DNA of 64,000 bases from Candidatus Poribacteria bacterium (GTDB taxonomy: Bacteria > Poribacteria > WGA-4E > WGA-3G): positions 1-64,000 of the forward strand of contig VXMD01000042.1 of NCBI GenBank assembly GCA_009841255.1, in the 5' to 3' direction. Below the pieces are notes generated by a model, which was not told the origin of the DNA, did no database searches, and was given only the letters and a program-made list of their open reading frames with translations. Made by a program: the position numbers and the translations under genes. Positions 19,614 to 63,081 of the stretch are shown piece by piece (position 1 is the stretch's first letter; every line of letters begins with the position of its first letter).

Positions 19614-22600
19614 CTAATCTGCGGGTGCCGGTACTGGATCCATCTGTCCTGCTTCTTCTGCCGAGGGGTCCATGCCTTCGGTTCTGCCGCGCTCATGGAA
19701 CTCTGCTCGGATATCGACACTGAATGTCCGCCAAATCAAAAGCTGTTTCCGCAGCAGATTGAGGAAACGTCGGTTGACCCGCTTCCAAGAGGCAATCTCA
19801 CCACTCTCGCGATGTACATCCAACGTGATTTTATAGAGATCCTCTTCTTCACCGCCTACTGGAGATGTAACGAACTGAATAGACTGGCTCACACCCAAGT
19901 CATAAGGCGCCAACCAGACCATCATCCCGATCTGATAGGAATCTTCGGCTTCTGTTTGGCTGAATGCAACCTGGTCCGTGTAGAAATCACTGGCAGATTC
20001 GTCCGCATGTGCCTCAAAATAATCCCGCATAAAGACGTTCAGACCGAGGGCTTCTTCTTCGAGGACGGTAAAGGGTAGGTTGAAGTGCCAGACATCCCCT
20101 TCAGGTTCCGGGAGTTTCCACTTACGTTCGATATCGGGGACTGCCATCCGTGAGGCTTTGATTGCTGGATACAGGGTACTTAACAACACGACAGCCATGA
20201 CGATGATTGTTGCAACAACAGTGGACATTGATGAGTAATTGAGCGTCAGCCCGGCAAGCCAGCCGAAGTGCACCAAGGTTGTCGCTATTGCTTGTCCCAT
20301 GAGATAACCTAACACCGCACCAACGATAGCGTATACGCATGCTTCTGCAAGGAACAGGAAGGCGATATGCACAGGCGCGAGTCCCACGGAACTGTAAATG
20401 CTGATTTCGCGGACCCGTTCATAGACAGCACCAAGCATGGTGTTAAGAACGATGAGGGCCGCGATCAAGATCGGCACAAACAAGTTACCCATACCGCTGA
20501 AACTCGTCATTCCGATACTACTGTAGAGGTATGTATCTTTATCCCGCCCTACAAAGAAGTCAAGGGCGATACGGTTCATGAGGGGTGCCATAATGAGATC
20601 TAACTTATCTATTGCCCCTAACAACTGCGGATCGTCCTCTTGCGGTTCCATGTTAACGGCAACACTTCGGAGTGTGCCGCCTTGATTCATAACCACCGCG
20701 TATGGCAGAATGGCAACACTATCTGGTGTGAGATGGAGATATTTTTGTAACTCACCCTCAAGTGTCTCATCACCCGTCGCACCTCGGCTCCGTTGCTGTT
20801 GCATCAACTGATAGTCGACGGGCGTAAGTTCTTCGCCATCGTTATCGGTGAGATCCTTGAAACCGATACCAAGAACACCGACGACGGTAAAGTCCGCACC
20901 GTAAACAGAAACGGTAGCTTTACCCATATCGCTTTCGGTAATCTTGAGCAACTCTGCCATCCCTTTAGGTAACACAATGGCGTAGGGCCACTCCGTTGGC
21001 CATTCGGCGGCATCTGCCGGGGTAAACCACTTCCCGTATTGAAGGTATCTGTCAATACCACTGACACCCGGTTCTGATTCATTCATACCCACGAGCATAT
21101 TTGCAGCAAAGGTCAATGCTTCACCCGTTAGTTGATGGGTCGGAGGCGATGGATCTGCTGGGTTTGCCGTGCGTGTAAGTTGGACAAACGATTGATCGCC
21201 GGTTCCTGAGGATTGATACCATGCACGCGGTGCGACGACGTTCCGAACAAATAAGACGGATTCTTCGTCGACCTTTTCAATGAAGCCACCCTCTTCTAAA
21301 GCCGTGCGTGCTTCCGCGAGGTCAACAGGTTGTTGTCCCTGTTTGACCAAGAGTTCATTCTTGCGTTGCAAAAGTCGTTCTAAGGCAGTGAGTGTGATCT
21401 GCGTCTTTTGCATATCATTTAGCACAGAGGTAAGCACAGGTTCTTCAAGTGGACGCCAGTATTGGTCACGAATGAGAAGTCCTGTATAGCGCGGTGTTAC
21501 TTGCGGGAGACTCGTTCTATTCGGATGCATAAACGTCCGCACGGAGGTAAACGATATAACAGTAAAGGTCAGAATTACCAACGTACAGCAGGTCAAGATC
21601 GTCCGTCCTTTCCGTTTCCGCATGTTGGAGATACCTAAACTGAATGCGGCGGCACTCGCGCTTAGTCTACCAACATCTGCTTTATAAACCTTACTTCCCT
21701 CTTGCCGGATCTTTTCGAGTTGCTCCTCGAATTTTCGGACAATAATGCTAATGACGATAACCGTCAATGCCAGCACTACGAACGCGATGAGGATAATCAC
21801 GGGTGTGGTGGTAATCTGGAATGCAGGGTGAACTTGACTGAGAAAGAAAAAGACAAGTAAAAAGATACCGAAGGATCCCAAAATCTGCTTGTGGATATTC
21901 GGGAATCCAAAAATGAGCCGCTCCATAAAGTACGCGAACGGCATGAGTAAAGCGAGATAGAACATTACGCCATTAACAACATCGTTACCCGTCTGTTTGA
22001 CATCCGGATAGGCCCGTGATTCGTAACCCCACGCGGCGCGAGCGAGTTTGAGGGCTTGTTGATAGTCGCTTTGGAGCAATTCAGTTTCTGCCCGTGCAAG
22101 GTAATCGTTCGCAAATTGATGGAGTTTATCAAGCCGATCGCTCGAGATACCGAACCGTTTATAAAGTCGTGAGCGGTTTTCATCGAGCCACCACATATCC
22201 CGGACAACGACATACGGCGTGAGACGAATTTGCCCGTTTTCGCGGACAACAAATCCTTCACCGGTATAAAGCGTCGGATTCTTCATACCGCTCTTCGTTG
22301 CTTTGATGAGTAGGAGTCGTTTGCCGATCTGTCCATACGCCATTCCGACTTTAATGCGGGTGTTTGGTTCGCTATACACGAGTGCGATAGGTTCGGCTGC
22401 AGACACACCTTCCTGTTGCCACGGTTTGGACATCCCGAATTTCTCCGGCGAACTGTCAGTGAGTGCATCATAGACTTCGAGTTCCCGCAGCGTTCGCAGG
22501 TACCGCTGATCCACCAAGTCGTAGATAGTTGTAGATACACAAGGGAATGTGACAACCCGACACCCGCGTCTACGCGTATTGATGGGAATTTCATTCGGGA

Positions 22601-25600
22601 GCAGTTTAGCACCGTAATTCCCTAAATCGGGTGCGTAGATGATATCACCAGAATCTGGATCGAGAATATAGGCTTCGACTTCTTGTTTCCCTTTGAGACG
22701 TCGTGTGGCTCTACCTTCCATGGCTAACCCGGCAACTTCAAAATTTCCCTTGTTGTCGCCCATCACAAACAGGTCCCCGCGGACCCCCATCATGGTTTTA
22801 TTCTTTCTACGCAGTGTGATGATAGGATAGGGGACGGGTTTATTCGGGAGTGCGGACTCGCGTGCATCAAATTCAACGACATCACCGAAGAGATTGCAGT
22901 AGAAATTCCCGACCCGTGCAGCGGTAGGCATTTCTTCGTCCCGGAGTGCTTGGATGAGTAGCGATGCCAGGGTCTGTGCTTGCTGATGGAGGTTACCGTC
23001 TTTGTGCAAGTCTACGCGTTCAATCGTATCGAGGGGTGTATCCGTTAAGACGCGGGCGTCTTCGATGGTTGCAAAAGCGATTCCGGTCTTTCCGACAAGC
23101 GTTGCTACCTCACTGTCAAAAGCGATTTTACCGGGGATATAAGTTTTCCAAGTCTTTCCACCGCTTGCGGAGATGGCGTTAACAAAGTTTGACTCACCGC
23201 CGAGACCCGCGATCGAAATAAGCGTTTTAATGTCCTCGATTTCTTCATCGGAGAAAGTTTCCGGATCTTCATGTCGAAGTCGGAGCATTGCGTCGAGTTG
23301 CTCACGTGTACGGATGTTATTCTTTCGATTTTTCTTTGCAGTGCGGACATCATTTCGGATGAAACGCTCGACCTCTTTTCGGATATAATCCATATCCTTG
23401 AGCATATCCTCAGAGGGTTCACCTTGGTTGCGCCACTGTTCAAACTGCATTTTCATCAGTCGACTCACGCCGCTGAGACCCGTGAGTTTATTGAAGTGCG
23501 AACTCAGTAGCGTTTCAAGGGTCTTTCCTTCAAGGGCGGCTTTATCAGAGATTCCATTTGCGACCGTCCATTGACGTGCCATAACGGCTTGTCGAATTTG
23601 GTCATCTGTCCACTGCCAAAGTTTCCGGACACGGACACCAAAATCAGCATCTTCGGCGTAAGAGGCAAGTTTATTGCCGATGCTTGCAAACTCGCGACGT
23701 AATACAAATTCGGGTTGCTGGTCATAGAACCATCCCTTATTGAACACCCCGAACTGATTCGATTGTGAGGAGAGGTCAATACTAATGTAGAGGGAGGTAT
23801 AATATCGGTTGAACAGGTCTTGAAGGGCGATAGCGGCCTCAATCTGACCGAGTTTTCGGTTGTATTCATCGGTGTCGATGCGCAGCATCTTTTCAATGCG
23901 ACTCTGGATGTTACGGAAACGGGCGTTGCGGAGTGTCAACATGTTATCGCGAAGAAGCACTTTCGTTTCTTCATCCAAATCGGTATCTAATGTGGGTAAC
24001 CGTTCAATGAGGTTTTCGAGTGCTACGATATCTGTGTCTGCACGCTTTTTGACGATTTCTAAGAGTTCTTTTTCGTTAATGTGTGATGAGATGCGCGAAC
24101 GCAACGAAAGTGCCTGTTCAACTTCATCCTCTGATAGGTAATTTTCCAAAATGAGACGTTCTTCATCCAAGTATTCCCGCCCTAACGTTCCGGCTGTTGC
24201 GATCAAATTCTGGATACGCGTTTGTTCCAATCGGGCATTCCGGAGCGCAATTTCAAAGATACCCTGTTTATCTTTCAGAAGATCTGCTATCAATATGGCA
24301 GCATCAACAACGTCTTCAGATTCGTTGAGCCGCTGTCGAAGTTGGGTGTCGATAGTATTAAGGCGCTCTATCCCGGGCTTCGACAAAAACTTACCACCGT
24401 AAATTAGAGCATCGCCGCTTGATTTTCCCATCGGCGTTTCTTTGAGTCTCCGAATGCTGACTTTAATCTCGTCTTCAACGGGTTGGCTATCAGGGATTTG
24501 TGCCAGAACCTTTTCAAGGAGTTGGACCTCTCGCTGAATCGCGACGGCTTGGGTGTCGTTGGCATCGCGCAAAACACTGCGGGCATCTTTCGCTTTATTG
24601 AGTGAGTGTAGGTCGAGATGCCGGTCGAGTATTTTCTCGGGAGTCCACATCAGCGCAAATTTGCGTTTGTCGCTCATCTCCCAGTTTGCGAGGGTTGTGT
24701 TAAGCATCTCTATATCAGGAACGAGTTCTTGTGGAAGATCCGCTGGGATAGGGATTTGCCAGTCTGACCCCTGTTCTATCGGAATAAGGTAGGCATCGTT
24801 TGGATGGGTCCTATATTCGTCGGTACCGCCAGTCTCTATAGCCTGAATGAGTTTCTTGACTGCCCATGTGTCAAGACGGGCAATCGGTAGCCCAAGCGTT
24901 TCGATTAATTCGCGCTGCGCGGATCGGCTTGTATTGAGGGCAACAGCACGAACCTCGGCTAACCTACCGACAATATCTCGAAGGAAATGTGTCGTTTGCA
25001 GCGCCTCTTTCTTCGAGCGGGCAAGATTTGCTAACAGACGACTCTTCTCTTCACCTGTGAACCCCTGTTTCTCACGTTTTCGATTCCTATCTGTTTGCTT
25101 CTTCTGGCGTTCTGAAAAGTCCCGCTGTTGCTCCGTGAGAGATTCAATCTCAGACCGTGTTTCTGCCAAACCATCGAGAGTCGTCGTCAGGGAGTCCAAG
25201 TCAGACTTTACGTTATGTATGCCGTGGAAAAAGTTGGCTGGGAGATCGACGAGGACACTCCGGTCAATGGAGAGCAGAAGCCTTCTACCCAATTCTTCAA
25301 ATTCGAGGACATCTGTAGAGAGTCCACGGCGCAGTCCGTGCATCGTTGGTGTACCGGGTGAATCGGTATCAGAACCTACAATATCTTGTCCAATGCCTTC
25401 CATGAAGGCACGCATGCCAGCAAGCCCTTGGAAGTGTCCATCAACTGCAACAAAGAGGACAGAGTAACCGGGCCGATATTGGGGCTGACTAAAAAGACGC
25501 GCCAGTTCCATAAGGGTCGCGATCCCGCACGTCGGATCAGCGCCGGGAGCCATCGCAGGGACGACGGACATGGCGTCGTAGTAGGCTGTGAGAACGATGA

Positions 25601-26945
25601 GTTCATCGCGTAAGGTCGGATCTCCACCTTCCAAAAATCCACGTATATTTTGTCCGACGCGACGTTCCCAGGTCATCTTACCCCTGACGCGAACGTTAAC
25701 TTGATTGCCCTGAGCGTGTTGTTCTTCCAATAAATCGGTGAGGACAGCCGCATCTTCTTTGGCGATCCAGAATCGCGGTATATTGGCAGGGACCGTACCG
25801 AATTTATTTTCTGCTTCGCCTCGAATGGTTGTTTCGGGTTCAATAAAGATAACGGCAGTGCCCCCGAGCATTGCCGCATTGATATAACGGGTGCTGGAGT
25901 TAAAATCGAGAAGGACTATCGCCCCTTTCGGGATAAAGATGTGTGACTCACTCGCGGCGACAAACTCTCCGGATTCATCGACTTGTCCATTGTTGTTATT
26001 ATCGATTCCATCGGTATCGTCTCCTGGCGTTTCGTCTGTCCAGCCATCTGCGTCGTTGTCAATGCCATCTGTTCCCCACCCTAAGATTTCAGAAAGCAGG
26101 GGGATTTCGCCGTATTCATCAATAGTGCCATCCTCATCATTGTCAATACCATCGGACGCTTTTTGCAAATGTTCATTAAGTATATCATCGGTGATGCTGG
26201 CTTCGGTAATACGATAACGTCGGGCGAGTGTTGTGAGCGTATCCCCATCTTGGAGTTTGTGCCAAAATCCACCAATGTTGGTGCCGTTAAAATCGGCGAG
26301 TTCAGCATCGTCGCCGTAAAGAAGGGGACCCGACAAACCGCCTGTTGGAATAAATACGGTGCTGCCTTCGACAACCGGGGTCGCCAAAAATTTGTTCCGG
26401 TCATCTGCGCGGATAACCGTTTCGTCAATTTGGTAACTTTCTGCGATGTCTTGAAGTGTTTCACCCGCTAACACGGTATGTTTAATTCCGTCTGCTAACA
26501 GGGAGGTCCGCACAAGATTGGGCCAGAGTGGGGCAAGTTTAAAGGCGTGTAATAGATCGGCTTCCGGAGAGAATACTTCAATGATACTATCACCATGGTC
26601 AATCGGCACAGTGACGGAAAACTCTCGGCTTTCTACGTTTTGTAAGCCGGTTTCGACGAAACGGTCAAAAATGTATTTGCTGCCACTCGCAGCTTGTGGG
26701 TAGCCCGTTACTCGGCTGTCGAGGCTTGAGAGGCGTGCAATGTCCTTTCGAATGTTGCCAATAGAGAGATCATCGCGGATCTGAATAGCTGCGGATTTCA
26801 GGTTTCCCGTACTGGAAACGGCTTGGGCATAAGCAGTATCGGACAGTTGCCCAGCGACAAACAAAACGGAAAGGAAAAAAATTGATACGTTTATGAGCGC
26901 ACTGAAGCGTCGCAAGCGGCACGCGTGTCTACTATGAATTTTCAT
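19614..26945 (-). CDS. Giant fusion: inactive M28 peptidase, LysM modules, coiled coil, FtsX permease
   Basis: A 2443-residue envelope protein. After a signal sequence (about 14-40) comes an M28/PA-domain region. It is interrupted by one LysM (about 155-200) and by a second LysM (about 228-338) that is itself split by calcium-loop repeats of the DGIDND type (265-327). The PA strands resume at GAIVLLDFNS (341). The M28 core (about 445-520) has lost key metal-site residues: AYYD replaces GHYD (Y455) and GHFQG replaces GEEQG (H504, F505); GAD (468-470) is kept. About 1100 mostly helical, coiled-coil-like residues follow. The membrane part starts near 1660, with FtsX-core helices near 1790 and 2140-2260 and the family loop YERVREISIYSSVG. 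A soluble tail of about 160 residues ends it. Start ATG 26945 has GGGAG upstream. Confidence 0.85.
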   Translation of the reverse strand: MKIHSRHACRLRRFSALINVSIFFLSVLFVAGQLSDTAYAQAVSSTGNLKSAAIQIRDDLSIGNIRKDIARLSSLDSRVTGYPQAASGSKYIFDRFVETGLQNVESREFSVTVPIDHGDSIIEVFSPEADLLHAFKLAPLWPNLVRTSLLADGIKHTVLAGETLQDIAESYQIDETVIRADDRNKFLATPVVEGSTVFIPTGGLSGPLLYGDDAELADFNGTNIGGFWHKLQDGDTLTTLARRYRITEASITDDILNEHLQKASDGIDNDEDGTIDEYGEIPLLSEILGWGTDGIDNDADGWTDETPGDDTDGIDNNNNGQVDESGEFVAASESHIFIPKGAIVLLDFNSSTRYINAAMLGGTAVIFIEPETTIRGEAENKFGTVPANIPRFWIAKEDAAVLTDLLEEQHAQGNQVNVRVRGKMTWERRVGQNIRGFLEGGDPTLRDELIVLTAYYDAMSVVPAMAPGADPTCGIATLMELARLFSQPQYRPGYSVLFVAVDGHFQGLAGMRAFMEGIGQDIVGSDTDSPGTPTMHGLRRGLSTDVLEFEELGRRLLLSIDRSVLVDLPANFFHGIHNVKSDLDSLTTTLDGLAETRSEIESLTEQQRDFSERQKKQTDRNRKREKQGFTGEEKSRLLANLARSKKEALQTTHFLRDIVGRLAEVRAVALNTSRSAQRELIETLGLPIARLDTWAVKKLIQAIETGGTDEYRTHPNDAYLIPIEQGSDWQIPIPADLPQELVPDIEMLNTTLANWEMSDKRKFALMWTPEKILDRHLDLHSLNKAKDARSVLRDANDTQAVAIQREVQLLEKVLAQIPDSQPVEDEIKVSIRRLKETPMGKSSGDALIYGGKFLSKPGIERLNTIDTQLRQRLNESEDVVDAAILIADLLKDKQGIFEIALRNARLEQTRIQNLIATAGTLGREYLDEERLILENYLSEDEVEQALSLRSRISSHINEKELLEIVKKRADTDIVALENLIERLPTLDTDLDEETKVLLRDNMLTLRNARFRNIQSRIEKMLRIDTDEYNRKLGQIEAAIALQDLFNRYYTSLYISIDLSSQSNQFGVFNKGWFYDQQPEFVLRREFASIGNKLASYAEDADFGVRVRKLWQWTDDQIRQAVMARQWTVANGISDKAALEGKTLETLLSSHFNKLTGLSGVSRLMKMQFEQWRNQGEPSEDMLKDMDYIRKEVERFIRNDVRTAKKNRKNNIRTREQLDAMLRLRHEDPETFSDEEIEDIKTLISIAGLGGESNFVNAISASGGKTWKTYIPGKIAFDSEVATLVGKTGIAFATIEDARVLTDTPLDTIERVDLHKDGNLHQQAQTLASLLIQALRDEEMPTAARVGNFYCNLFGDVVEFDARESALPNKPVPYPIITLRRKNKTMMGVRGDLFVMGDNKGNFEVAGLAMEGRATRRLKGKQEVEAYILDPDSGDIIYAPDLGNYGAKLLPNEIPINTRRRGCRVVTFPCVSTTIYDLVDQRYLRTLRELEVYDALTDSSPEKFGMSKPWQQEGVSAAEPIALVYSEPNTRIKVGMAYGQIGKRLLLIKATKSGMKNPTLYTGEGFVVRENGQIRLTPYVVVRDMWWLDENRSRLYKRFGISSDRLDKLHQFANDYLARAETELLQSDYQQALKLARAAWGYESRAYPDVKQTGNDVVNGVMFYLALLMPFAYFMERLIFGFPNIHKQILGSFGIFLLVFFFLSQVHPAFQITTTPVIILIAFVVLALTVIVISIIVRKFEEQLEKIRQEGSKVYKADVGRLSASAAAFSLGISNMRKRKGRTILTCCTLVILTFTVISFTSVRTFMHPNRTSLPQVTPRYTGLLIRDQYWRPLEEPVLTSVLNDMQKTQITLTALERLLQRKNELLVKQGQQPVDLAEARTALEEGGFIEKVDEESVLFVRNVVAPRAWYQSSGTGDQSFVQLTRTANPADPSPPTHQLTGEALTFAANMLVGMNESEPGVSGIDRYLQYGKWFTPADAAEWPTEWPYAIVLPKGMAELLKITESDMGKATVSVYGADFTVVGVLGIGFKDLTDNDGEELTPVDYQLMQQQRSRGATGDETLEGELQKYLHLTPDSVAILPYAVVMNQGGTLRSVAVNMEPQEDDPQLLGAIDKLDLIMAPLMNRIALDFFVGRDKDTYLYSSIGMTSFSGMGNLFVPILIAALIVLNTMLGAVYERVREISIYSSVGLAPVHIAFLFLAEACVYAIVGAVLGYLMGQAIATTLVHFGWLAGLTLNYSSMSTVVATIIVMAVVLLSTLYPAIKASRMAVPDIERKWKLPEPEGDVWHFNLPFTVLEEEALGLNVFMRDYFEAHADESASDFYTDQVAFSQTEAEDSYQIGMMVWLAPYDLGVSQSIQFVTSPVGGEEEDLYKITLDVHRESGEIASWKRVNRRFLNLLRKQLLIWRTFSVDIRAEFHERGRTEGMDPSAEEAGQMDPVPAPAD

Positions 26946-39814: not shown

Positions 39815-39960
39815 TTTTTAATGGTTCCTTGCGGTTAAATGACGCGGGTTTGGACGTTAGCGTTCCTCTCTCGAATCCGCTCTCCATTTCATTACGAGCT
39901 ACGGTTTCTATTTTACGGACCCCTTTTAATGATTCCTTGCGGTTAAATGACGCGGGTACG
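39815..39960 (-). repeat. RBS-bearing mosaic repeat, copy G, duplicated
   Basis: Two 3' ends occur in tandem on the minus strand: CCGCAAGG at 39834-39827, 12 nt from the ATG of the dehydratase gene, and another at 39942-39935. Both are preceded by ACCCGCGTCATTTAA. Between them lies the GTAATGAAATGGAGAGCGG module. The second end faces no gene. Confidence 0.65.
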
Positions 39961-40587: not shown

Positions 40588-41841
40588 ATGCGTCGATCTT
40601 ATGTTCCTGCTTTTGTAGTTTGTATTAGCAGTATCGCACTTCTGCTTTCACTGTCTTTCCAGAGTGCGGCTACGACTTTTTCCGGTCGCGTTGTTGACGA
40701 GACGGGAAAACCGGTTTCTGACGTTGAGGTCGCCCTACCTGGATTCAGAGTGACGACACCGCAGGACCAAGATGAGCCTGTGTTCCTTCCCTCTCAACAG
40801 AGTGAAACGAATGAAGTCGGCGAGTTCCTGATTAACGATATTATTTCACCTTCCGTTCAATTGGTGTTGCTTCCCTTCCGTGAGGCAGCGTATGAAATTC
40901 GCGCTGCCACAATTGAGGGGGTATCCTTCTATATTGATGAAGATCGGGGTCGTTATGGGGGTCTCACGTTCGCGATTGCACCGGGAGCAGATGTCGAAGA
41001 TGTGGAGATAATTGTTCGTCCGAGGATGCGGATTCGGGGACGCGTTCTTTCTGCCGACGGCACCCCACTTCGTAATGAACGCGTTAGCATCAGGGTAGAC
41101 CGCCGCAATATAGAAGGTAGAGGCAGAGGCGGTGGTGAAAGCGGGAGAGTGCTCGATGCCGATGGTTACTTTGTGGAGTATGTGAAAAGGTCTGCCTATT
41201 ATACCATTTCTGTGGGATATCAAGGACAGTTCGCAAAGTCGGAGGAAATATTACTTGAAGACGGGGAACGTCATGATAAACTCGTCTTGATGCTCGACGA
41301 TAAACCGCCGCTGAAGCGCCCCCGAGCGGTCGCTCGTCCTCTCGACAGAGAACAGTTTCAAGCGGCGTGGAACCGCGATCGTCAAGGTATGTGGGCAGTC
41401 AATCCCGAAAACCGACATGCCTACAAAAGAGTTTATTGCGAAAGCCGTGAGGAGGCGCGCACCCGCGCTGTCGATCAAGGGGCACATCTCGTTGCTATCA
41501 ACGATGCAGCAGAACAGGAATGGCTCCTTGAAGTCTTTGGACGTGAAAACTATTGGATTGGACTCACCGACGCCTCAGAAGCGGAGAATCCACACTGGGA
41601 TAACGGTGAACCTGTCACATATACCAGCTGGAGTTCGTCAGAGAAGATGGCTGGCGGTGAGGGGACCGGTCAAACGGATGATGCAAGCCAGAATTACACT
41701 GTTCTCATCGGATTGACAGGGAAATGGCAAGAGACGCGTCGGGGCAACCCTCTCGCCCGCCTGACGCAACGAGCGATTCTGGAGAAAGAGCATTTCACCG
41801 TTGGAGCACCTGAATTAGACGGCGACGTTGAAAAGCGTTAG
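40588..41841 (+). CDS. Secreted regulatory-like/C-type-lectin-like protein 1 of 4
   Basis: A 417-residue protein started at ATG 40588 (AAGGGAG 9-10 nt upstream, good signal sequence AFVVCISSIALLLSLSF). Two carboxypeptidase-regulatory/CnaB-like sandwiches follow: SGRVVDETGKPVSDVEVALP and MRIRGRVLSADGTPLRNERV. The C-terminal domain (about 270-410) is C-type-lectin-like: NRHAYKRVYCESREEARTRAVDQGAHLVAIND, YWIGLTDASE, WDNGEPVTYTSW and NYTVLIG. Only one cysteine is left of the usual four. It is the first of four adjacent paralogues. Glycan or protein binding outside the cell is likely; no enzyme motif is seen. Confidence 0.8.
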   Translation: MRRSYVPAFVVCISSIALLLSLSFQSAATTFSGRVVDETGKPVSDVEVALPGFRVTTPQDQDEPVFLPSQQSETNEVGEFLINDIISPSVQLVLLPFREAAYEIRAATIEGVSFYIDEDRGRYGGLTFAIAPGADVEDVEIIVRPRMRIRGRVLSADGTPLRNERVSIRVDRRNIEGRGRGGGESGRVLDADGYFVEYVKRSAYYTISVGYQGQFAKSEEILLEDGERHDKLVLMLDDKPPLKRPRAVARPLDREQFQAAWNRDRQGMWAVNPENRHAYKRVYCESREEARTRAVDQGAHLVAINDAAEQEWLLEVFGRENYWIGLTDASEAENPHWDNGEPVTYTSWSSSEKMAGGEGTGQTDDASQNYTVLIGLTGKWQETRRGNPLARLTQRAILEKEHFTVGAPELDGDVEKR

Positions 41842-41868
41842 GCGAGCAGGACACGAGGAGATATTGAA

Positions 41869-43191
41869 ATGAACCGAACCTATGTTAGACCGAAATTAGT
41901 CGCACTTGCATTGATACTTTGGTTTGCCGTGGTAGGCATTGAAACGGCGGCAGAACAGTTTAGTGGGCTTTCGGGAAAAGTCGTCGATTTAGCGGGAAAC
42001 GCCGTCGCTGGTTTTACATTTGCTGTTCGACCCGTCCAACTCCACGCTGGTTTTCTGGAACCGGAGCACGGATTCCGAGCCGATTTACCCAAGGGCGAAA
42101 CGGATGCTGCGGGAGCTTTCACCATCAACGATATCCAGCCGGGGCTTGTTCAATTAATCGCGCTTCCAGCTCCGTTGCTTGATGCTTTTGAGATGTTGGA
42201 TCCAGAGCGATTCCCGGCAGAAGGGGCGATTCCACCGGAATTGATGAGCCGTGGCGGGCTTAAGCCGGATCAACAGATTCTCTCTATTCAAGTCGGAACG
42301 GTCACCTTCTTCAATATAGGAGATCACCACTTTTCTGAGGGACTCACGTTTGCACTCGAACCCGGTGTGATTATTGAAGATGTCGCAGTTACCGTTAAAC
42401 CGCGGCTCCGAATTCGTGGACGCGTTGTTTACGCCGATGGCACGCCTCTCGCCAACGCCGAGGCGGACCTTGGCATAGAACAGAATCATGAGACCCGTCC
42501 GAATCACAGTAGCGGCCTTAGCACCAACTTTTTTACGGATGCCGGAGGTTACTTTACGGAATATGTGGAGGAACCTGGGTTCTATACACTCTCTGTAGAA
42601 TATAACGACCTTTCTGCGGGCGCGGGGCCCTTTCTGCTCAAGGACGGCGTGCAGCCAGGGGAGATTGTCTTAACGCTTGAAGGTAAACCGGAGCCCGTTG
42701 AACCGCCCGCTGATGACCTTCCAGTTCCCGGTAACATCAAGTTCCGCCAGCCACCCGCACCGCCGTTAGCAAAAAGCGTGTGGATCATTAATCCCACGAA
42801 TGGACACGCTTACAAAAAAGTTCTTTGTGAAGACTGGCAGGATGCCCAACGCAAGGCTGTTGAAGAGGGCGCGCACCTCGTCTCTATCAACGACGAAGTC
42901 GAACAACATTGGCTTGAGGTCATCTTTACGCACAAACCCTTTTGGATCGGACTCACCGATGTAGAAAAAGAGGGGGAATGGCGGTGGGATAGCGGTGAAC
43001 CCGTCACCTATACCAACTGGGCAACCCATCCAAGTTTCCCGGATAGACTTTCGGATGCCGAGAAGGACTATGTCGTGGTCACCTTTAGGCAGGGTGGATG
43101 GCAATCCGCGGGTCCTGAAAGCCCGCTCTGGCGTATGGCACGATGGGCGGTCATCGAAAAGGACGGATTGGTTTCTACGATAGGTGAATAG
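41869..43191 (+). CDS. Secreted regulatory-like/C-type-lectin-like protein 2 of 4
   Basis: A 440-residue paralogue of the preceding protein, with GAGGAG before ATG 41869. Signal sequence LVALALILWFAVVGI; first sandwich SGKVVDLAGNAVAGFTFAV; second sandwich LRIRGRVVYADGTPLANAEADL; lectin-like domain from WIINPTNGHAYKKVLCEDW with FWIGLTDVEKEGEWRWDSG and EPVTYTNW. A proline-rich linker precedes the lectin part. The 27-nt gap to gene 1 suggests one operon. The longer first sandwich and low linker similarity show an old duplication. Confidence 0.8.
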   Translation: MNRTYVRPKLVALALILWFAVVGIETAAEQFSGLSGKVVDLAGNAVAGFTFAVRPVQLHAGFLEPEHGFRADLPKGETDAAGAFTINDIQPGLVQLIALPAPLLDAFEMLDPERFPAEGAIPPELMSRGGLKPDQQILSIQVGTVTFFNIGDHHFSEGLTFALEPGVIIEDVAVTVKPRLRIRGRVVYADGTPLANAEADLGIEQNHETRPNHSSGLSTNFFTDAGGYFTEYVEEPGFYTLSVEYNDLSAGAGPFLLKDGVQPGEIVLTLEGKPEPVEPPADDLPVPGNIKFRQPPAPPLAKSVWIINPTNGHAYKKVLCEDWQDAQRKAVEEGAHLVSINDEVEQHWLEVIFTHKPFWIGLTDVEKEGEWRWDSGEPVTYTNWATHPSFPDRLSDAEKDYVVVTFRQGGWQSAGPESPLWRMARWAVIEKDGLVSTIGE

Positions 43192-43227
43192 GTTGTCTTT
43201 ATACGCTTTTGTAAGGAAATAAGAACA

Positions 43228-44460
43228 GTGGAACGTTTGTATTTCAGAAGGGAAATCTTCACACTTCTCATTGGAATTGTAGTGCTTTTCCTCTTAAGTG
43301 CGTTGGAGAGCGGCGCGCAGGAGGGTGTGTTAACCACTTTCGCAGGTCGCGTCGTTGATGAGGCAGGACATCCGATTGCCGGACTGACGATCGTTCTTGT
43401 TCCTGTCCAAGACGGTCATGGCGCATGGTTTCCAGTTGAGATCAATGAACGTGAATGGCCCGATGATCCGATGGCGTTCCAAGCGGAAACCGATGCGGAA
43501 GGGTGTTTCGTCATTACTGATACTATTGTTGGTCCCGTGTTGTTAGGATTGTTTCCGTATCATAAGCCAGAGGCACATATCTTAAAGGTCCAAATCGGCG
43601 ATATATTTCTCTATGCACCTGAGGAATCGTGGGGACGTGGCATCGTGTTTTCTGTGGAACCGGGGGAGTCCCTTGTGGATGTTGAAATCACGGTGCAGCG
43701 GTTTCTACAATTCCGAGGGAAAGTTCTAAAAATGGATGGGAATCCGCTCGCCAATGCGCAACGTGTCAAGTTCAGGGTAAGGCAACTCAGCTTAGATGGA
43801 GAATACGATGGTAGGAGATCATGGGGCACAGAAACGAATGCCGAGGGGAACTTCGTGCAGTACATTCCCCCTTATGTAAATGGACCTATGTTTTACTTCC
43901 TGTCTGTCACATGTCGGGACGGAAGCGCACAATTGGATCCAATTGTGGTTAGACCCTCAGATTTAATGCACGAGGCGATCTTCAGGTTCGAGACCCCGCT
44001 AATCCCTGATGTGCCCGGGAATGCTGTCCCTCGTTTCCATGGGGGTAGGCTTGACGCGAAAGATGTATGGATCGTCAATCCAGCGAATGGTCACGCCTAC
44101 AAAAAGATCCGTTTTAGCGGCGTAGAAGATGCTATCGCGCAAGCAGCTAAAGAAAATGCTCATCTCGTCGCGATTAACGATGACACGGAACAGCAATGGT
44201 TGGAACGAGTCTTTTCTCCGATGCGAACCTTGATTGGGCTCAGCGATATTGAGGAAGAGGGACAGTGGCAGTGGCACAGCGGGGAACCCATCACCTATAC
44301 GAACTGGGCACAGTATGAACCACAGGACACTGACAATGGAGATGAAGATTACGTCATTATGATGGGTGATAAATGGATAGACATTGGTCCTGGAGACGTC
44401 CGATGGCGTTTTATTAGCTCAGTACTCCTTGAAAAAGAAGGAGTGCTTCCAAAAAAATAA
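43228..44460 (+). CDS. Secreted regulatory-like/C-type-lectin-like protein 3 of 4
   Basis: A 410-residue paralogue starting at GTG 43228 (AAGGAAA upstream). Signal sequence FTLLIGIVVLFLLSALESGAQ; first sandwich AGRVVDEAGHPIAGLTIVLV; second sandwich LQFRGKVLKMDGNPLANAQRV; lectin-like domain from WIVNPANGHAYKKIRFSG. The single cysteine seen in the other three is replaced here (FSG for YCE), so this domain has no disulfide. The WIGL motif reads TLIGLSD. It is spaced 36 nt after gene 2. Confidence 0.8.
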   Translation: MERLYFRREIFTLLIGIVVLFLLSALESGAQEGVLTTFAGRVVDEAGHPIAGLTIVLVPVQDGHGAWFPVEINEREWPDDPMAFQAETDAEGCFVITDTIVGPVLLGLFPYHKPEAHILKVQIGDIFLYAPEESWGRGIVFSVEPGESLVDVEITVQRFLQFRGKVLKMDGNPLANAQRVKFRVRQLSLDGEYDGRRSWGTETNAEGNFVQYIPPYVNGPMFYFLSVTCRDGSAQLDPIVVRPSDLMHEAIFRFETPLIPDVPGNAVPRFHGGRLDAKDVWIVNPANGHAYKKIRFSGVEDAIAQAAKENAHLVAINDDTEQQWLERVFSPMRTLIGLSDIEEEGQWQWHSGEPITYTNWAQYEPQDTDNGDEDYVIMMGDKWIDIGPGDVRWRFISSVLLEKEGVLPKK

Positions 44461-44527
44461 ACTTTGATGTGTTCCAATTCACTGTTTGAGCGCAGTTTCT
44501 AACCACATGCCTTGTCAGGAGAAAACC

Positions 44528-45952
44528 ATGAAACATTCAGATTCTAAAGGACAAGCTTTGTTGGTGTTAATAGTGGTCATGGTATCTCTCGTCGGTTTGG
44601 TTTCGAACGGTATCCCTCAGGAAGATGCGGGAACCGTTACGGGACGCGTTATTGATCTGGAAGGAAATCCAGTTGCCGAGTTGCCGATATTTATTGCGCC
44701 CCTTGACGATGATGGCGATGGATACATGTCACCAGTGTTTTTACCGAATGAGCACGCGCAGTTACGCCGAGCATACACAGATTTAGAAGGTCGGTTTTCC
44801 GTAACAGATGTCCCCTCGGGTCCCATACACATCGATGCTCTTCCTTATGACATAGATAGACTCCTGCCCGAGGACTTTGAGAAGATTATAGATGATTTCG
44901 CATCCAGAGATTGGACGGAACTTACACAAGACGATATAGATGCGTTCGTTTCCAGTAACTTCGGCACGGATCCAAATGACTTTGAGCCAGATGTTGAAAT
45001 TTTGTCCCTCCGTATCCAAGGGTTAACCCTATACCCGCGTAATGATCACGATGAAATCGCGTTCGGTCTCCAGTCGGGGGCGCATATTAAGCATGTGGAG
45101 GTCACTGTGCAACCTCGGATGCGAGTTCGTGGACGTGTCCTTTTCACGGACGGGACACCGCTTGCCAATACCCGCGTCCGCGTCCACATCCATTATCGTA
45201 ATGTGGATGGTGCCGGTTCCGGCAGTAGCGGTGCAGACCTACGGACAAACGCTAAAGGATACTTCGTCCTCTATATAGATGAGAAGGATGATGCTGCGTT
45301 CTACACGTTTTCTGTGGAATACCAAGGGCTTTCTGTGGAGGCTAAGCCGATTCGCCTGGATCCAGGCGACCGATTTGAGGGACTGACGTTGACGTTTGAC
45401 AGGGAACCGATTCCGCCCAAACGACCCTCTCAAAAAACGGAAGCAGACGAGCCTGAACCGTCTCTGCCGGTACCAGAAGCACCGTTGAGGTCAACGTCTT
45501 ATGATGTGTGGGTCGTCAATCCCGAGAATGGACACGCCTATAAACGGGTTTACTGCGAAACTCGCGACGCTGCGATTGTCCAAGCAACCGAGGAGAAAGC
45601 GCATCTTGTTGTAATTAATGATGCCGAGGAGCAGGCGTGGTTAGAGGCGGTTTTCGGACATAAATTCTATTGGATAGGACTCAAACGTGTCCCCGTGACA
45701 GGTGCGCTTTCTAAACGGACAAAAGAGTGGTGGCAATGGGATAACGACGATCCTATCACCTATGCAAACTGGGTACCCAACGATTTCTTTTCTGAGTCCT
45801 TGGATGCCAGCGAAAGGGACTATGTCGTTATGACCCTCCCTGATGGAAAATGGTATGCCGTGAGCCTTGACAGTGTTATCTGGCGTATGACGAAAATGGC
45901 AATTCTCGAAAAAGCAGATGCGCTTGATGGTTTCCCTACCGAGGAAGAATGA
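44528..45952 (+). CDS. Secreted regulatory-like/C-type-lectin-like protein 4 of 4
   Basis: A 474-residue paralogue started at ATG 44528 with AGGAG 6 nt upstream. Signal sequence ALLVLIVVMVSLVGLVSNGI; first sandwich TGRVIDLEGNPVAELPIFIA, with an acidic insertion (about 120-160, DDFASRDWTELTQDDIDAF); second sandwich MRVRGRVLFTDGTPLANTRV; lectin-like domain from WVVNPENGHAYKRVYCETR with YWIGLKRV and WDNDDPITYANW. It is closest in sequence to gene 1 at the lectin part (YKRVYCE). It ends the tandem array; pyrB follows on the other strand. Confidence 0.8.
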   Translation: MKHSDSKGQALLVLIVVMVSLVGLVSNGIPQEDAGTVTGRVIDLEGNPVAELPIFIAPLDDDGDGYMSPVFLPNEHAQLRRAYTDLEGRFSVTDVPSGPIHIDALPYDIDRLLPEDFEKIIDDFASRDWTELTQDDIDAFVSSNFGTDPNDFEPDVEILSLRIQGLTLYPRNDHDEIAFGLQSGAHIKHVEVTVQPRMRVRGRVLFTDGTPLANTRVRVHIHYRNVDGAGSGSSGADLRTNAKGYFVLYIDEKDDAAFYTFSVEYQGLSVEAKPIRLDPGDRFEGLTLTFDREPIPPKRPSQKTEADEPEPSLPVPEAPLRSTSYDVWVVNPENGHAYKRVYCETRDAAIVQATEEKAHLVVINDAEEQAWLEAVFGHKFYWIGLKRVPVTGALSKRTKEWWQWDNDDPITYANWVPNDFFSESLDASERDYVVMTLPDGKWYAVSLDSVIWRMTKMAILEKADALDGFPTEEE

Positions 45953-45995: not shown

Positions 45996-47075
45996 TTACG
46001 AGAGCAGGTTTCCGCAGTAGGCGCAAGCGTCCAACGTGACATCCCCTTTAAACGTTTCACGTTCAGGAGTGAGGTACGTCTCGTGATTCGTGACGCAGTT
46101 TGTATTTTCACACGTCCGTGTAGAAGAAGCGATCTCTCGTTCTGGGGGTTGTGTCAAGATGAGTTGTTCCAATCCCACAAGGCTAGCGATCAGTGCCATT
46201 CGAACCGGCACTGCGTTCGCGGATTGCTCGAAATAGGCGGCGCGGGGATCATCATCTAATTCATAGGCGAGTTCATTGACACGCGGGAGCGGATGCATAA
46301 TCATCGCATCGGGTTTGGCGTGTTTCATAACGGATGCATTCAGTAGGTAGCTGCCTCGGACAGCAGCGGCATCCATATTCGGTGGGAGTCGTTCCTCCTG
46401 AAGTCGATTGACGTAGATGACATCCAACCTATCAATCACTTCTGTAATACTTTCTACCTCAAGCGGTATCTGTCTGTGGCGTTGCTCCAGTTGTGCGAGC
46501 ACCCACGGCGGCATTTGTAGCGGTTTCGGCGCGATGTGAATCAGGTTTCCGCCGAATCGCGCCACTGCGAGGGCAAAGGAGTGTGCCGCCCGTCCGAACT
46601 GAAGATCGCCACAGATGCCGATGGTTAAGCCGTCTATCTGCGATTTTCGCTGTATAATGGTATAAAGATCCGCGAGTGCCTGTGTCGGATGCGTATGGCT
46701 GCCGTCGCCGCCATTGATGACGGGGACGTGTGCGTATTGTGCGATGACACGTGCCGCGCCTGCCCAGTTGTGCCGCACGACAATGAGATCGGCGTAGTTT
46801 GTTACCATTCGTGCGGTGTCGGCAAGCGTTTCTCCTTTAGTCGCGGAAGTTGCTTGCGGATCGGCGAAGCCGAGCGTGCCGCCATTGAGCCGTCCCATCG
46901 CACTTTCAAACGAGAGTCGTGTCCGGGTGCTGGGTTCATAAAAGAGGGTTGCCAGCAATTTACTTCGACAGATACCTCCCCACGTCTCCAAGTGCGACTG
47001 CATGCCTGCCGCGAGCCGAAAGATTTGTTCAATCTCAAAATTCGACAAATCGTCGAGTGTTACCAAATGCCTCAT
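45996..47075 (-). CDS. pyrB: Aspartate carbamoyltransferase with fused PyrI-like zinc knuckle
   Basis: A 359-residue enzyme of pyrimidine synthesis joining carbamoyl phosphate and aspartate. The carbamoyl-phosphate loop FYEPSTRTRLSFE (STRTR 49-53), HPTQALADLYT and MHPLPRVNEL are intact. Bacterial catalytic chains end near residue 305. Here a tail carries C322-x4-C327-x23-C351-x2-C354 in CENTNC...CAYC, with FKGDV between, the pattern of the PyrI regulatory-chain zinc domain. The allosteric nucleotide-binding half of PyrI is absent. The zinc knuckle may sit where PyrI normally docks. The gene is next to pyrD. RBS from repeat copy H. Confidence 0.92.
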   Translation of the reverse strand: MRHLVTLDDLSNFEIEQIFRLAAGMQSHLETWGGICRSKLLATLFYEPSTRTRLSFESAMGRLNGGTLGFADPQATSATKGETLADTARMVTNYADLIVVRHNWAGAARVIAQYAHVPVINGGDGSHTHPTQALADLYTIIQRKSQIDGLTIGICGDLQFGRAAHSFALAVARFGGNLIHIAPKPLQMPPWVLAQLEQRHRQIPLEVESITEVIDRLDVIYVNRLQEERLPPNMDAAAVRGSYLLNASVMKHAKPDAMIMHPLPRVNELAYELDDDPRAAYFEQSANAVPVRMALIASLVGLEQLILTQPPEREIASSTRTCENTNCVTNHETYLTPERETFKGDVTLDACAYCGNLLS

Positions 47076-62529: not shown

Positions 62530-63081
62530 TCAAACGAAAAATGGGATGAGGTCTTCTCGGAGTTGGAGTCGTGCGTTGCGGAGATGTGATTTGATAGTGC
62601 CTTCAGAGCGGTTCAGGCGGGTGGCAATCTGTTTTATCGACAGATCCTGAGCGTAGTAGAGGAGAAAGACTTGTCTGCGGATGGGCGTGAGTTGCTGGAT
62701 AGCAGCGCGCAAGTGTTTGCGAAGTTCGGTGCGTTCCACGTCATGACTCGGACACGGGTGTGTTTGTGTGACTCGACGTTCCTCAATCAGATGCAGCGGT
62801 TCTGTGTCGTGTTTCTGCTTGCGAAAAAAGTCGATGCAGACGTTTTCCGCAATACGGTAAAGCCATGAAGAGAACGCCGATGTCCCTCGGAACGTGTGGA
62901 TAGCTCGGAACGCCTTTAACCAGGTCTCTTGTGTGAGGTCTTTGGCAACTTCTGCATCAGTGACACGGCGCGTAATGTGGGTATACAGGCGGGATTGGTA
63001 TTTTTCTACCAGTGGACTAAAAGCTTCAGGGTTGCCGGCTTGCGTGCATTCAATCAGATGTTTTTCGTTGAGGGTTAACAA
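62530..63081 (-). CDS. ECF RNA polymerase sigma factor
   Basis: A 183-residue sigma-70-family protein starting at TTG 63081 (AAAGGAA about 12 nt upstream). Region 2 is YTHITRRVTDAEVAKDLTQETWLKAFRAIHTFRG with SAFSSWLYRIAENVCIDFFRK. Region 4 is LTPIRRQVFLLYYAQDLSIKQIATRLNRSEGTIKSHLRNAR. No anti-sigma gene is adjacent on the 3' side; the gene upstream encodes a PilP/GspC-like protein. The regulon is unknown. Confidence 0.9.
   Translation of the reverse strand: MLTLNEKHLIECTQAGNPEAFSPLVEKYQSRLYTHITRRVTDAEVAKDLTQETWLKAFRAIHTFRGTSAFSSWLYRIAENVCIDFFRKQKHDTEPLHLIEERRVTQTHPCPSHDVERTELRKHLRAAIQQLTPIRRQVFLLYYAQDLSIKQIATRLNRSEGTIKSHLRNARLQLREDLIPFFV

Follow-up and report, generated by a model that had tools for sequence, protein, structure and literature searches.

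The window, by which we mean the whole 64,000-nucleotide stretch of the Candidatus Poribacteria genome analysed here, carries a tandem array of four genes. We read their products, with moderate confidence, as exported A/B partner pairs, paralogues of a membrane-tethered sigma-factor sensor to which they were probably coupled in the past. In this family duplication, loss and retention act on the A-B pair, not on the single gene. In the arrays of two relatives (L012 and L008) a transmembrane segment links an A member to an ECF sigma factor.

A four-gene array of sandwich and lectin-like proteins

The sequence-only reading had described four tandem genes of one architecture, each with a ribosome site of its own, and this description held. 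The genes are intact, co-oriented reading frames on the + strand (Table 1), separated by stop-to-start gaps of 27, 36 and 67 bases; a purine-rich ribosome site lies upstream of each, and Pfam domains were found in each product. The profile search that had been proposed returned Lectin_C above the cut-off in all four proteins (E-values of 9e-10, 3e-13, 9e-9 and 2e-8) and CarboxypepD_reg above it for genes 1 and 4 and just below it for genes 2 and 3. Gene 2 shares 36-37% identity with the other three window genes and with a fifth paralogue located elsewhere in the genome. A hydrophobic N-terminus is present in all four proteins (by eye and in a hydropathy scan), and the four products are predicted to be exported.

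Alignment of eight upstream regions revealed the ribosome site as the only conserved DNA 5′ of gene 1, and scans for promoters and terminators gave counts near or below those of shuffled sequence. A 25-base intergenic repeat is located at 39825-39849 and 39933-39957 of the window; it occurs at 8 places in the genome with at most two mismatches, and its reversed control at none. On its - strand the window also has a 2443-aa ORF (19614-26945) that matches M28 peptidase and FtsX permease; a further match, to LysM, is weak for each single stretch.

Table 1. Positions of the array genes, of their neighbour and of the sigma fusion of a relative. Positions without a locus name are those of the window; CTLD, C-type-lectin-like domain.
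Feature	Position	Strand	Description
Gene 1, type A, orthogroup A1	40588..41841	+	417 aa; hydrophobic N-terminus, two CarboxypepD_reg/CnaB-like sandwiches, CTLD without EPN/WND-type site
Gene 2, type B, orthogroup B1	41869..43191	+	440 aa; architecture as gene 1; CTLD without EPN/WND-type site
Gene 3, type A, orthogroup A2	43228..44460	+	410 aa, GTG start; architecture as gene 1; CTLD with EPQD...DEDYV...KWID
Gene 4, type B, orthogroup B2/3	44528..45952	+	474 aa; architecture as gene 1
Putative recombination junction	45900..45952	+	60-base identity profile follows L012 gene 4, then L012 gene 6
Flanking pyrB (aspartate carbamoyltransferase)	45996..47075	-	named from its sequence; site marker in L012, L010 and L007
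Sigma fusion, fifth gene of the L012 array	L012:12185-14233		682 aa; sigma regions 2 and 4, hydrophobic segment, sandwiches, CTLD

The C-type-lectin fold that had been proposed for the C-terminal domains is present: besides the four Lectin_C matches, residues 279-405 of an AlphaFold2 model of gene 3 (pLDDT 79.7, pTM 0.54) match CTLDs, with a Z-score of 14.7, an rmsd of 2.5 and 30% identity across 118 aligned residues of a mannose-receptor fragment. The sandwich part of the same model matches pilin/CnaB and BOS-complex chains (E < 1e-5) with low TM-scores. The window domains differ from the mannose-receptor-family CTLDs in that they have no disulfide pair and that the EPN/WND-type residues are gone in three of the four copies. 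The absence of the usual disulfides had been noticed before and was confirmed, since the CTLD contains one cysteine in genes 1, 2 and 4 and none in gene 3. Across the family, in a set of 224 CTLDs (25 of the 249 family ORFs were left out), 186 have one cysteine, 27 none, 10 two and one eight. Two sequence motifs had also been highlighted: WIGL is kept in the array except in gene 3, which reads LIGL, whereas EPVTYTNW is not an exact shared string (EPVTYTSW in gene 1, EPITYTNW in gene 3, DPITYANW in gene 4). The EPVTYTNW-type motif aligns with the CTLD core W.W..G.P..Y.NW, and the sugar-binding EPN loop comes C-terminal of it.

Paired genes at a conserved site

Poribacteria are an uncultured phylum known from marine sponges. 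The earlier suspicion of a sponge-type lineage agrees with the genome, which is that of a poribacterium; the sponge association itself is drawn from the phylum. In the available text of PMC8546597 the phylum is divided into sponge-associated and free-living members. Among the best 80 of 153 matches in a species-genome collection, 72 loci were found, all of them from Poribacteria, the closest being 85-88% identical to gene 2. The family is present in 50 of 60 genomes including the window's own, that is, in 49 of the 59 relatives: 35 of 35 in the same genus, 8 of 14 in the same order and 6 of 10 in the same class, where the matches are mostly weak or partial. Five copies are found in the own genome and up to 19 per genome in relatives. 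We collected 249 family ORFs from 74 sources (the 72 loci, the window and a stretch of contig C82); all 248 ORFs in the loci and the window share the strand of the match. Three short family ORFs of 263-274 aa (L009:3859-4650, L028:12336-14013, L030:8670-9494), located within or after arrays, contain the sandwiches and lack the CTLD. The solitary fifth paralogue (L005:1354-2685 / L006:9983-11317) adjoins a laminin-G-like protein and two ORFs that resemble permease parts.

A tree was made with the 201 of the 249 ORFs that cover model positions 40-395 (74 sources). Its clades follow array position and are positional orthogroups; these are old and conserved in position, and we rejected the possibility that the copies are recent variants. 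The 125 adjacent labelled pairs, which come from related species with several loci per genome and are therefore non-independent events, comprise 90 AB, 32 BA, three AA and no BB pairs, so that 122 of 125 alternate. (Three of the 201 rows are unlabelled and three are labelled X; a single B-X neighbour pair is outside the 125.) In runs of at least three genes 77 of 80 alternate, versus a maximum of 62 of 80 among 300 shuffles; the names A and B were assigned after the positions had been seen, which is allowed for by using the best relabelling of each shuffle. In all 90 AB pairs the A gene is followed by the B gene of its own clade (A1-B1 43, A2-B2/3 26, A4-B4 10, A5-B5 11). From this pairing we suppose that A and B proteins function jointly, in the simplest case as heteromers. 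Tandem duplication of a block of two genes could also have produced the pairing as a side effect, which counts against a partnership. On a tree of 61 rows (a random draw from which four long-branch rows were barred) the A/B labels need two changes, and A5 and B5, which sit at loci other than those of the A1-A4 types, cluster together; the A/B division may therefore either have arisen twice or have been blurred by conversion.

At the pyrB site the array has two genes in L007 (the contig ends within gene 1), four in the window and in L010, and six in L012. L008 contains five consecutive genes of the six-gene order, its contig beginning within gene 2. Comparison in 60-base identity blocks showed that gene 4 of the window follows L012 gene 4 until approximately position 45900 and then L012 gene 6 together with its flank. 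Gene 4 of the window is a gene-4/gene-6 hybrid, which we read as the scar of a lost sigma-fusion gene and its B partner. The sigma-plus-B block is also present in L015, with the gene order of L012. Being common to both, the block probably predates the split of these species, and loss is then the best explanation for its absence from the window and from L010. In a further locus, the orthologue of gene 4 (L062:7938-9398) has a gene-2-like end (DGLVSTIGK), and 3′ ends of B genes look exchanged between paralogues.

Sigma-factor fusions in relatives

Pfam searches with the L012 fusion found Sigma70_r2, Sigma70_r4 and Lectin_C above the cut-off and the sandwiches below it. Its hydrophobic segment spans approximately residues 221-239, giving the make-up of a membrane-tethered ECF sigma factor with a topology predicted from hydropathy alone; AlphaFold modelled the fusion poorly (pLDDT 52.9). 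The sigma part was matched in 18 of the 249 family ORFs, and a hydrophobic 19-mer is located C-terminal of it in all 18. Twelve of the 18 extend to the CTLD, and all 12 fall into A clades of the tree, most of them into A2, the clade of gene 3. The other six are not full length (sandwiches only, or interrupted) and are outside the tree. A full-length fusion occurs in at least 12 of the 59 relatives, 10 of them from the same genus, with up to 19 candidates scored per genome; among these 12, the G005 fusion has one in-frame TAG and the G016 fusion covers positions 1-606 only.

No sigma fusion with a CTLD was found in the own genome, which is 96% complete and covers the array site, when all 66 candidates were scored, and none of the four window proteins has a Pfam match to a sigma domain. 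Arrays in most genomes, the window's included, have no detected fusion, which indicates that the exported copies today do not need the sigma link. The own genome contains 54 matches to the fusion profile, approximately 20 of which span the sigma part, the membrane segment and the linker, in frames of about 440-1050 aa. Such other sigma fusions, which are often clustered in relatives, were sampled at four locations (G000:C82:182873-183784, L006:13841-16864, L018:784-3702, L023:9767-12310); two of the proteins end in BNR/sortilin propellers, one in WD40 repeats and one in an M61 peptidase with a weak PDZ match. A stand-alone ECF sigma factor of approximately 183 aa is encoded on the - strand of the window (62530-63081).

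Among the closest known counterparts is the ECF52 protein SCO4117 of Streptomyces coelicolor, in which, according to the available text of PMC8999054, an ECF sigma factor is likewise fused to a transmembrane part and to an outside region that includes a carbohydrate-binding domain. The poribacterial fusion differs in its outside part (two CnaB-like sandwiches and a CTLD), in the location of the sigma gene, which has a B partner and lies within an array of otherwise unfused paralogues, and in its lineage, Poribacteria, where the window's own genes have no sigma part. According to the same portion of that source, proteolytic processing is the favoured mode of SCO4117 activation, and IutY provides a precedent for a tethered sigma factor activated by proteolysis (PMC8999054). 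ECF57 proteins combine an ECF sigma factor with a large, WD40-like C-terminal extension, and Poribacteria have a WD40 version in L023; neither a CTLD nor a pair structure is part of the ECF57 description in the available text (PMC8999054). Eukaryote-like proteins of Poribacteria are surface proteins of the same phylum with domains shared with animals (PMC3909097, available text), in whose main text, as available, the word "lectin" is absent. No description of a poribacterial family with a lectin fold or a sigma fusion turned up in our literature search; subscription papers were outside its scope, so absence from print is not established.

Possible functions of the exported pairs

In the preferred reading, that of exported pairs related to a tethered sensor, two A-B pairs would be exported from the window, each protein carrying a C-type-lectin fold on two CnaB/transthyretin-like sandwiches. 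In the fused A member the sandwich-CTLD part would be an outside sensor, connected by one transmembrane helix to the cytoplasmic ECF sigma factor, and the B protein next to it would serve as a soluble partner. The sigma factor might be set free when a ligand or partner binds, probably by regulated proteolysis, in analogy to other membrane-fused ECFs. Recombination in the window lineage would have removed the sigma-bearing pair, leaving two exported pairs of putative recognition proteins. A more far-reaching version, which we offer tentatively, sees obligate A/B pairs as heteromeric outside receptors, with one A welded across the membrane to the ECF sigma factor for direct reading of a host or matrix cue; the window would have kept the receptors and shed the switch.

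The proteins might instead be exported lectins or adhesins, whose CTLDs bind glycans of the sponge matrix or of neighbouring bacteria, with the sandwiches as stalks and copies that differ in sugar. We consider this doubtful. It has in its favour the CTLD fold, found by profile in all four proteins and by model in gene 3, and the distribution of the calcium/sugar site. A strict EPN...WND-type pattern, composed after inspection of the sequences, is present in 34 of 201 array members and only in A2, A5 and B5, including 13 of 16 unfused A2, 6 of 10 fused A2 and 12 of 13 B5 members. Class-level homologues (L113, L123, L136, L115) read EPN...WND in the CTLD, and the ancestor may have been a calcium-dependent lectin; L131 of the same class reads EPN...WSD and has two sandwiches and no sigma part. 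On these two observations, the EPN...WND of the class-level homologues and the confinement of the pattern to A2, A5 and B5, the family probably began with a calcium-type site that most array members have lost. Against lectins or adhesins, however, the pattern is absent in A1 (0/50), B1 (0/46) and B2/3 (0/28), the clades of window genes 1, 2 and 4, and in A4 (0/11) and B4 (0/10). Neither the pattern nor inspection by eye found the EPN/QPD and WND residues of calcium site 2 in genes 1, 2 and 4, and protein or non-canonical contacts are the more likely use of their CTLD surface. Gene 3 (EPQD...DEDYV...WID) keeps three acidic positions and not the asparagines, making it a candidate for a partial calcium/sugar-type site.

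The loops are also not fast-evolving, which counts against the lectin or adhesin reading. In 15 pairwise comparisons of window genes with their orthologues, whole-gene dN/dS was 0.14-0.30; the CTLD core gave 0.05-0.19 and the loop half (the CTLD after the NW motif) 0.01-0.34, compared to 0.04 for the flanking pyrB; values near or above 1 were seen only in the N-terminal segment and, for gene 4, in the linker. Genes 1-4 are under purifying selection. The loop comparison, proposed by the sequence-only reading, thus gave no sign of diversification, and at the level of pairwise dN/dS we rejected diversifying CTLD loops. With low loop values, old orthogroups and the EPN...WND residues gone in genes 1, 2 and 4, that reading's idea of a diversified lectin array for glycan recognition was not borne out.

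Structural envelope or matrix proteins, with CnaB/transthyretin-like stalks and the CTLD as an assembly or protein-protein module, would be neither sensors nor lectins. The sandwiches of the gene 3 model are similar to those of pilins and other surface proteins, and the loss of the sugar residues in three of four copies and the purifying selection would fit as well. Nevertheless, we regard this as unlikely: the same domain set is fused to sigma in relatives, which points to sensing, at least there, and inspection of the window proteins by eye revealed neither a sorting nor an anchoring signal. That the genes are non-expressed, decaying copies is very improbable; a gene pair was lost in the window and sigma fusions are broken in relatives (G005, G016), but the four intact frames, their ribosome sites and the whole-gene dN/dS values argue against decay. 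Lectin-fold proteins are classical variable proteins of diversity-generating retroelements, and the C-terminal CTLD fold would suit such targets, but this origin is scarcely credible and was rejected, because the sole reverse transcriptase match of the genome (RVT_1) is on contig C82, not on that of the array, approximately 105 kb from the fifth paralogue, and the loop half is strongly conserved across species.

The family offers an array that gains and loses genes pairwise at one fixed site, and a lectin fold that is shedding its sugar residues inside one bacterial class. If the pairing is functional, it would be a lineage-specific surface recognition family of an uncultured, sponge-linked phylum. 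An outside lectin-fold part coupled to a sigma factor would, if true, give such bacteria a concrete route to read their surroundings.
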